35,246 bases of DNA from Candidatus Fusobacterium pullicola (lineage in GTDB: Bacteria > Fusobacteriota > Fusobacteriia > Fusobacteriales > Fusobacteriaceae), in NCBI GenBank assembly GCA_018883725.1, contig JAHLFN010000011.1:1-35246 (forward strand), given 5' to 3'. The stretch's first letter is position 1, and the number at the start of each line of letters is the position of its first letter. Below, piece after piece: positions 19,963-22,008 of the stretch. The position numbers and the translations under genes are program-made. Below the pieces are notes generated by a model. It was given only the letters and a program-made list of their open reading frames with translations, was not told the DNA's origin and ran no database searches.

Positions 19963-20550
19963 TTATCTAGAGTAGAACTCAACTATTAATGACTCGTTTA
20001 AATCGAAATCTAGATCATCTTTAGTTGGGTTTTGTAAAACTTTACCAGAGAAAGCTGCTCTATCTAGCTCTAACCATGCTGGTACAGTTGCATCTTCTAC
20101 AGATGTTTTGATTATATCTAAGTTTTTAGAATTTTCTATTATAGAGATAACGTCTCCTACTTTTACTCTGTAAGAAGCGATGTTAACTCTTCTTCCGTTT
20201 ACAGCTACGTGTCCGTGAGAAACGATTTGTCTAGCTTGTCTTCTAGTTTTAGCAAATCCTAATCTGTAAACTACGTTCTCTAATCTTCTTTCTAAGTATT
20301 CGATTAAAGTTAAACCAGTTACACCAAGTTTTCTTGCTGCTTCCTCGTATATCTTTCTGAATTGTTTTTCCATTACGTTATATATAAATTTTGCTTTTTG
20401 TTTTTCTCTTAATTGAACTGCATACTCTGTAGGCTTTTTGTTTGCATTTGGTCTAGGTCCTCTTTTAGAAGATTTGTTAACTCCTAAAACTACTGGATCA
20501 ATTCCTAGCGCTCTACATTTCTTCAATACAGGCTGTCTATTTCTTGCCAT
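19963..20550 (-). CDS. rpsD: Small-subunit ribosomal protein S4 (uS4)
   Basis: The 195-residue protein lacks the four-cysteine zinc site found in some S4 proteins (only C12 in the N-terminal region), so it is the zinc-free type. The S4 RNA-binding domain lies at about 90-150, with RRLENVVYRLGFAKTRRQARQIV and GHVAVNGRRVNIASYRV. S4 starts assembly of the 30S body and, in E. coli and Bacillus, represses its own operon by binding the leader RNA. Here the structured element upstream of rpsM is a natural candidate target. ATG with GGAGGA upstream. Confidence 0.98.
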   Translation of the reverse strand: MARNRQPVLKKCRALGIDPVVLGVNKSSKRGPRPNANKKPTEYAVQLREKQKAKFIYNVMEKQFRKIYEEAARKLGVTGLTLIEYLERRLENVVYRLGFAKTRRQARQIVSHGHVAVNGRRVNIASYRVKVGDVISIIENSKNLDIIKTSVEDATVPAWLELDRAAFSGKVLQNPTKDDLDFDLNESLIVEFYSR

Positions 20551-21060: not shown

Positions 21061-21417
21061 TTACTTTTTAATAGGTTTTTTAGGACCTTTAACTGTTCTT
21101 GCGTTAGTTTTTGAACTTTGTCCTCTTACAGGTAGATTCATTTTATGTCTTAATCCTCTGTAACATTTGATATCCATAAGTCTTTTTATAGAAAGTCTTA
21201 CTTCTTTTCTTAGGTCTCCCTCTACTTTAATAGTTTCTACAATAGCTCTGATTTTGTTTACTTCTTCTTCAGTTAAGTCCTTAACTCTTGTATCAAAGTT
21301 AATTCCAGCTTCTGTTAAAACTTTTTGTGAAGTTGGTTTTCCGATTCCGTAAATGTAAGTTAAAGCTATCTCAACTCTTTTATTTCTTGGGATATCTACT
21401 CCTGCTATTCTAGCCAA
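21061..21417 (-). CDS. rpsM: Small-subunit ribosomal protein S13 (uS13)
   Basis: The 118-residue protein has [25 protein letters not shown] at the start and the C-terminal [27 protein letters not shown] tail that reaches the tRNAs. It lies in the 30S head. The start codon is TTG (21417-21415), with AGGAGG eight to nine bases upstream. It is the first gene of rpsM-rpsK-rpsD-rpoA-rplQ. The 174-base gap before it contains a folded leader (21478-21545) and a second hairpin (21455-21473). In E. coli the equivalent gap is where S4 represses the operon. Confidence 0.98.
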
Positions 21418-21454
21418 AATTGTTTCCTCCTCTATCGAAAATTTTATATATTTT

Positions 21455-21545
21455 GCTAGTAATATAAACTAGCTCAATACTTTCGTCGATATGTTCCGTT
21501 TCCTAAATTCGGAGATGGCTCTACAGCCAACATATCTTTACAGTA
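21455..21545 (-). promoter_or_regulatory. Structured leader upstream of rpsM (candidate S4-responsive RNA)
   Basis: In the minus-strand RNA, GATATGT (21536-21530) pairs with ACATATC (21494-21488) and encloses two hairpins: GGCT-GTAG-AGCC (21528-21517) and TCCG...CGGA (21513-21495, eleven-base loop). Together they form a three-way junction. An outer TACT/AGTA pairing (21545-21542 with 21481-21478) extends it. A separate GCTAGT/ACTAGC hairpin (21473-21455) lies between it and the ribosome binding site. The region between rpmJ and rpsM is otherwise non-coding. Confidence 0.65.
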
Positions 21546-21591
21546 CTACATGTCTTAATTGTCGTACTTTTAACAAACTCTCTTTACAAAA

Positions 21592-21705
21592 TTATCCTTG
21601 AACTTGTTTGTGTTTAGGGTTTTCACATATAACTCTTACTTTTCCATGTCTCTTGATAACTTTGCACTTGTCACAAATAGGTTTAACTGATACTCTTACT
21701 TTCAT
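21592..21705 (-). CDS. rpmJ: Large-subunit ribosomal protein L36 (bL36)
   Basis: A 37-residue protein, easily overlooked because of its size. It starts [20 protein letters not shown] and ends HKQVQG. The zinc ligands C11, C14, C27 and H32 are all present, so this is the zinc-binding form. GGAGG lies just upstream of the ATG. The position between infA and rpsM is the usual one. It is transcribed with infA, whose stop codon is 22 bases upstream. Confidence 0.96.
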
Positions 21706-21979: not shown

Positions 21980-22008
21980 ATTATAGCATGTAAATTACAA
22001 AAAGTCTA
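21980..22008 (-). promoter_or_regulatory. Promoter upstream of infA
   Basis: Minus strand: -35 TAGACT (22008-22003), 17 bases, TGC TATAAT extended -10 (21985-21980). The predicted start lies about 25 bases before the infA ATG. It could drive infA-rpmJ and the alpha cluster independently of adk-map. Confidence 0.65.

Follow-up and report, generated by a model that had tools for sequence, protein, structure and literature searches.

An S4-Fusobacteriales leader before rpsM in Candidatus Fusobacterium pullicola, with an outer helix and a likeness to 16S rRNA helix 16

The 35,246-nucleotide stretch of Candidatus Fusobacterium pullicola DNA analyzed here (the window) carries infA, rpmJ, rpsM, rpsK, rpsD, rpoA, and rplQ on its minus strand, and the gap between rpmJ and rpsM raises the question of what RNA element it holds, whether that element is new, and which protein it answers to. 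With the rpmJ stop at 21592 and the rpsM start at 21415-21417, both genes being on the minus strand, the gap measures 174 bases, the length given in an earlier sequence-only reading, which had described a structured candidate new alpha-operon leader there. That reading left the strand unstated. The functional strand of the leader is the minus strand, and the proposed pairings were present on it: the GATATGT/ACATATC stem, the GGCT/AGCC hairpin (21517-21528), the TCCG/CGGA hairpin, a further hairpin, GCTAGT/ACTAGC, before the ribosome binding site, and an outer TACT/AGTA helix, which is made up of UACU at 21542-21545 and AGUA at 21478-21481, forms in both main families, and shows compensatory changes. 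The features are collected in Table 1.

Table 1. Features of the leader and of the genes behind it in the window
Feature	Position	Strand	Basis
RF03133 core per Rfam (GUAAA, P1, P2, P3, GANGAA)	21482..21543	-	60.3 bits by cmscan (E 5.1e-9) over a gathering score of 48.8
P0 outer helix, 5' strand AGUACU, outside Rfam structure	21542..21547	-	Partner 21476-21481; compensatory changes; RNAalifold, both families
P0 outer helix, 3' strand AGUAUU	21476..21481	-	As for the 5' strand of P0
Internal loop strand GUAAA	21537..21541	-	Essentially invariant in 46 distinct sequences; equals 3' strand of 16S helix 16 loop
Internal loop strand GANGAA (GACGAA in window)	21482..21487	-	Essentially invariant; matches 5' strand of 16S helix 16 loop (GATGAA or GAAGAA)
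P1 stem, 5' strand GAUAUGU	21530..21536	-	46-sequence comparison
P1 stem, 3' strand ACAUAUC	21488..21494	-	46-sequence comparison
P2 hairpin UGGCU-GUAG-AGCCA	21516..21529	-	Rfam alignment, fold, covarying pairs
P3 hairpin UCCG...CGGA	21495..21513	-	Rfam alignment, fold, covarying pairs
Upstream arm AGUAC, candidate competitor for P0 5' strand	21564..21568	-	Fold; pairing prediction with shuffled controls
P4 hairpin GCUAGU/ACUAGC, 3' of leader and 5' of the ribosome binding site	21455..21473	-	Covarying pairs, Fusobacteriaceae alignment only
Shine-Dalgarno AGGAGGA of rpsM	21425..21431	-	Sequence
rpsM (S13), TTG start, gene 1 behind leader	21061..21417	-	
rpsD (S4), presumed repressor, gene 3 behind leader	19963..20550	-	

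Family membership and distribution

An Rfam scan of the window returned a single match over cutoff, to RF03133 in full length (model positions 1-60). The element shows the P1 stem with two hairpin arms and the GUAAA and GANGAA flanks of that family, and it lies directly 5' of rpsM-rpsK-rpsD-rpoA-rplQ. In its main text, the 2020 publication of the S4-Fusobacteriales leader by Eckert and Weinberg (PMC7247131) places the leader before the same five genes and calls it a "likely candidate," with S4 predicted, by precedent in other bacteria, to be the most likely ligand. We conclude with high confidence that the window holds an ordinary, well-conserved member of this known family. The claim of novelty is thereby withdrawn, the sequence-only reading having itself stated that a clear Rfam match would make the element known; its suggestion of S4 feedback on the alpha operon agrees with the literature and, as far as can be judged from the sequence, is right. 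The covariance-model search that it had proposed for the gap put RF03133 over its cutoff and RF00140 (Alpha_RBS, the E. coli type) far below, with 13.2 bits (cutoff 38), which bears out the remark that the fold is unlike the E. coli pseudoknot. The E. coli alpha-operon leader has the same position before rpsM and the same presumed ligand, S4, but it is a pseudoknot, with the ribosome binding site as one of its parts.

Of the 98 Fusobacteriota genomes searched, 91 carried a single copy of RF03133, with 90 exceeding the cutoff; the 14 control genomes had none. Each of the 71 loci read has the leader directly in front of rpsM. A whole-genome search for a second copy turned up nothing beyond a match at chance level (17.3 bits, E 2.5). 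When the seven genomes lacking a match were re-examined, rpsM was located in three, in one of which the contig ends just before the gene. In an outgroup of the same class (G001, locus L075), the rpmJ-rpsM gap is about 18 bases long and holds no leader. Another outgroup (G097, locus L074) has a reduced leader in the rpmJ-rpsM gap (minus strand, 1926-1962) that scores 29.8 bits, below the Rfam cutoff, and reads AAACU-GUAAA-GAUAUG ... CAUGUC-GAGGAA-AGUUU; one small hairpin, CAG-CUCAA-CUG, replaces both arms, so that this lineage retains P0, the loop, and P1 and is missing the two arms.

Against dinucleotide shuffles, the whole 174-base gap folded with a z score of -3.69 (0 of 200 shuffles as good), and the core alone was mildly unusual, with a z score of -1.81 (11 of 200). 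Folding energy by itself is therefore weak evidence, and it is the comparative evidence that lifts the element above chance. Separate RNAalifold runs on the Fusobacteriaceae set (48 sequences) and the second family set (21 sequences) gave z scores of about -10 and -6, respectively, relative to column-shuffled alignments. The six Rfam pairs of P1 were formed in 100% of 46 sequences, four of them with changes on both sides, and P2 and P3 contained covarying pairs in the family alignments. P4 showed both-sided changes in 2 to 18 of 48 sequences per pair in the Fusobacteriaceae alignment; it is absent from the second family, whose leader is closer to the start codon by about 30 bases. The moderate margin by which the core alone beats its shuffles speaks for a fold that arose by chance or persists as a structural relic with no regulatory role, but the presence of the element in 91 of 98 genomes, its covarying stems, and its invariant loop make such an origin so improbable that it can practically be set aside.

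The outer helix P0

In the Rfam structure line of RF03133, the seven bases 5' of P1 and the six bases 3' of it have no partner. The window shares the loop, P1, P2, P3, the operon position, and the bacterial order with the family as described, but here the flanks form a covariation-backed helix, P0. The bases adjoining the loop are able to pair in all 71 loci read, and among 46 distinct sequences P0 had its first two pairs in every case, its third pair in 44 sequences, and its fourth in 36. Compensatory changes were seen at the second pair (C-G to U-A) and at the fourth (U-G or U-A to A-U). For P0 and P1 together, there were 40 cells with both-sided changes versus 15.8 in shuffles, the covariation score was 0.370 versus 0.268 in shuffles, and sliding the partner strand lowered the pairing from 90% to 52% or less. 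RNAalifold predicted P0 in both family sets. Counted by pairs, those with at least one both-sided change were not in excess (6 observed versus 6.4 in shuffles), and the double changes in P0 represent few independent events, mainly the divergence of the two families; for these two reasons, the covariation support for P0 is good but not overwhelming. P0 is real and refines the Rfam family model, and it may already figure in the supplements of PMC7247131. The RF03133 model is perhaps worth extending outwards, which may help to find diverged members such as the reduced leader of L074.

Likeness to 16S rRNA helix 16 and to the Bacilli leaders

With P0 in place, the GUAAA/GANGAA internal loop is closed on both sides. 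The main text of PMC7247131 proposes the GUAA of the Fusobacteriales leader as an imitation of rRNA, as in the Firmicutes leader, and contains no mention of helix 16 by name or of a permutation. Since the assembly lacks a 16S rRNA of the window's own genome, the comparison was made with the 16S rRNAs of relatives. Helix 16 reads GCAC-GAUGAA-GUUU-UUCG-GAAU-GUAAA-GUGC in the window's genus and GCAC-GAAGAA-GGUU-UUCG-GAUU-GUAAA-GUGC in one genome of the second family, the leaders of which read AAUU-GUAAA-G ... U-GAAGAA-GGUU. In both rRNA and leader, GAAGAA or GAUGAA faces GUAAA between two helices, and GANGAA is variable at its third position in each RNA. The difference is that the strand order is swapped: the tip helix of the rRNA corresponds to P0, the open end of the leader, and the base helix of the rRNA corresponds to P1. 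At the level of sequence, the leader loop is thus a reproduction of helix 16 with swapped strands. The helix 16 region of 16S rRNA is contacted by S4. A literature search brought up nothing useful on contacts between S4 and helix 16 or on transcription start sites in Fusobacterium.

For comparison with the Bacilli, 80 rpsD loci were fetched by using a Bacillus S4 query that matched the S4 of Bacillus mojavensis at 99%. A loose pattern of GUAAC and CGANG around a short inner hairpin occurred in 76 of the 80, and 65 of those 76 had an outer helix of at least four pairs. In the Bacilli leader, GUAA forms the 5' strand of the internal loop and CGANG the 3' strand, an order shared with the Fusobacterial leader, and the loop likewise lies inside an outer helix; the Bacilli leader differs in having a single short inner hairpin, two extra bases before GUAA, and a position before rpsD alone. 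The window does not contain the Bacilli type, GUAAC/GCGANG around a single inner hairpin before rpsD, but has GUAAA/GACGAA, two arms, and a position before rpsM, and the earlier judgment that the fold is unlike the Bacillus rpsD leader stands in these respects. Once P0 is included, the Fusobacterial and Bacilli leaders look more alike in sequence and pairing than the Rfam model suggests. In the five Bacilli rpsD loci tested (L080, L090, L111, L133, and L143), the experimentally known Bacillus-type S4 leader matched no family of Rfam release 15 at E values up to 0.1.

Start codons, competing pairings, and the proposed repression by S4

The rpsM start codon was TTG in 66 of 71 loci, GTG in 5, and ATG in none. 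In 31 longer loci, including the window, rpsM began with TTG and rpsD with ATG in every case, and rpsK began with TTG or GTG; the weak starts of the first two genes would fit control at initiation. A single gene in the genome matches Pfam Ribosomal_S4, the rpsD of this operon. This single S4 gene within the operon, the family membership and constant position before rpsM, the published ligand prediction, the invariant loop that equals 16S rRNA, the covariation of P0 and P1, the retention of just P0, the loop, and P1 in the outgroup variant, the likeness to the Bacilli leader, and the weak starts were counted in favor of repression by S4. It is very probable, in our assessment, that this RF03133 member acts through S4 binding and translational repression of rpsM-rpsK-rpsD. 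A response to S13 or S11 instead would place the ligand gene nearer the leader, as rpsM and rpsK are, both with weak starts, and the published ligand is a prediction by precedent in other bacteria; with an invariant loop that copies helix 16, in the region of the S4 site, and the same loop present in the S4-binding Bacilli leader, either of these two proteins is a very unlikely ligand.

A promoter-like site lies before infA at 21980-22008 on the minus strand (TAGACT and TATAAT with a spacing of 17 and a preceding TG), and it is probably, to judge from its sequence, the promoter of infA-rpmJ-rpsM onward. The leader is thus probably internal to a longer transcript. Such a position would also suit an action on transcription or mRNA processing, by an attenuator or by an RNase site separating the rpmJ and rpsM parts, for which P4 and the competing arms offer alternative hairpins. 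No intrinsic-terminator-like site was found on the minus strand within the gap, the second family lacks P4, and the weak starts suggest control of initiation, which together leave an attenuator or RNase site unlikely.

In the predicted native ensemble of the window, P0 had a probability of only 0.03, its 5' strand being paired upstream with a probability of 0.97 and its 3' strand downstream with a probability of 0.82. The predicted P0 probability rose to 0.50 with the upstream flank shuffled, to 0.89 with it deleted, and to 0.999 with both flanks deleted. Upstream competition was at least as strong as in 95% of the leader's own shuffles in 44% of 45 Fusobacteriaceae-type leaders and in 56% of 18 second-family leaders, where about 5% would be expected, the sequences in both sets being related and not independent; for the window itself, 8% of shuffles matched its upstream competition. 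The predicted energy needed to force P0 was about 2.5 kcal/mol for the window and averaged 4.1 kcal/mol over the first set, amounts that tight protein binding could supply. P0 may need S4 in order to form, because the flanks outcompete it in the predicted folds.

In constrained folding, the Shine-Dalgarno sequence was unpaired with a probability of 0.42 in the free RNA and 0.52 with P0 formed, so that its openness was unchanged, and its sequestration through P0 was rejected for want of support from these folds. Sequestration by the P3 loop, where UCUCC faces GGAGG in the window, was also rejected; by eye, the complement is not kept in relatives. If there is a switch, it would therefore not work by hiding the Shine-Dalgarno sequence, and the translational options that the models leave are blocking by the bound protein and trapping of the ribosome.

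For translational repression by S4, the following course is proposed. Free S4 lacking 16S rRNA would bind the leader at the GUAAA/GANGAA loop, the bound loop being the helix 16 copy flanked by P1 and P0, and binding would stabilize P0 against its upstream and downstream competitors. The bound leader would then lower translation of rpsM from its weak TTG and, with it, of the genes coupled to rpsM as far as rpsD. The core of second-family leaders ends only about 30 to 44 bases short of the start codon, and there the bound S4 would probably obstruct the ribosome directly. The case for S4 feedback is good; S4 as the ligand, repression, and a block at translation initiation are what we infer from the sequences, as is the step from binding to repression, the folding models not predicting that P0 hides the ribosome binding site. 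More tentatively, and with considerable doubt, the leader could be a two-state switch in which, without S4, the upstream and downstream arms would hold the strands of P0 apart, and S4 would close P0 and complete the strand-swapped copy of helix 16; this would unite the Fusobacterial and Bacilli leaders as one architecture.

The element itself is catalogued, and the main value of the analysis lies in confirmation and refinement. P0 and the match to helix 16 make the prediction of S4 as the ligand directly testable with two small loop mutants. If the switch were true, the architecture common to the Fusobacterial and Bacilli leaders would be a loop closed on both sides, with the same strand order.
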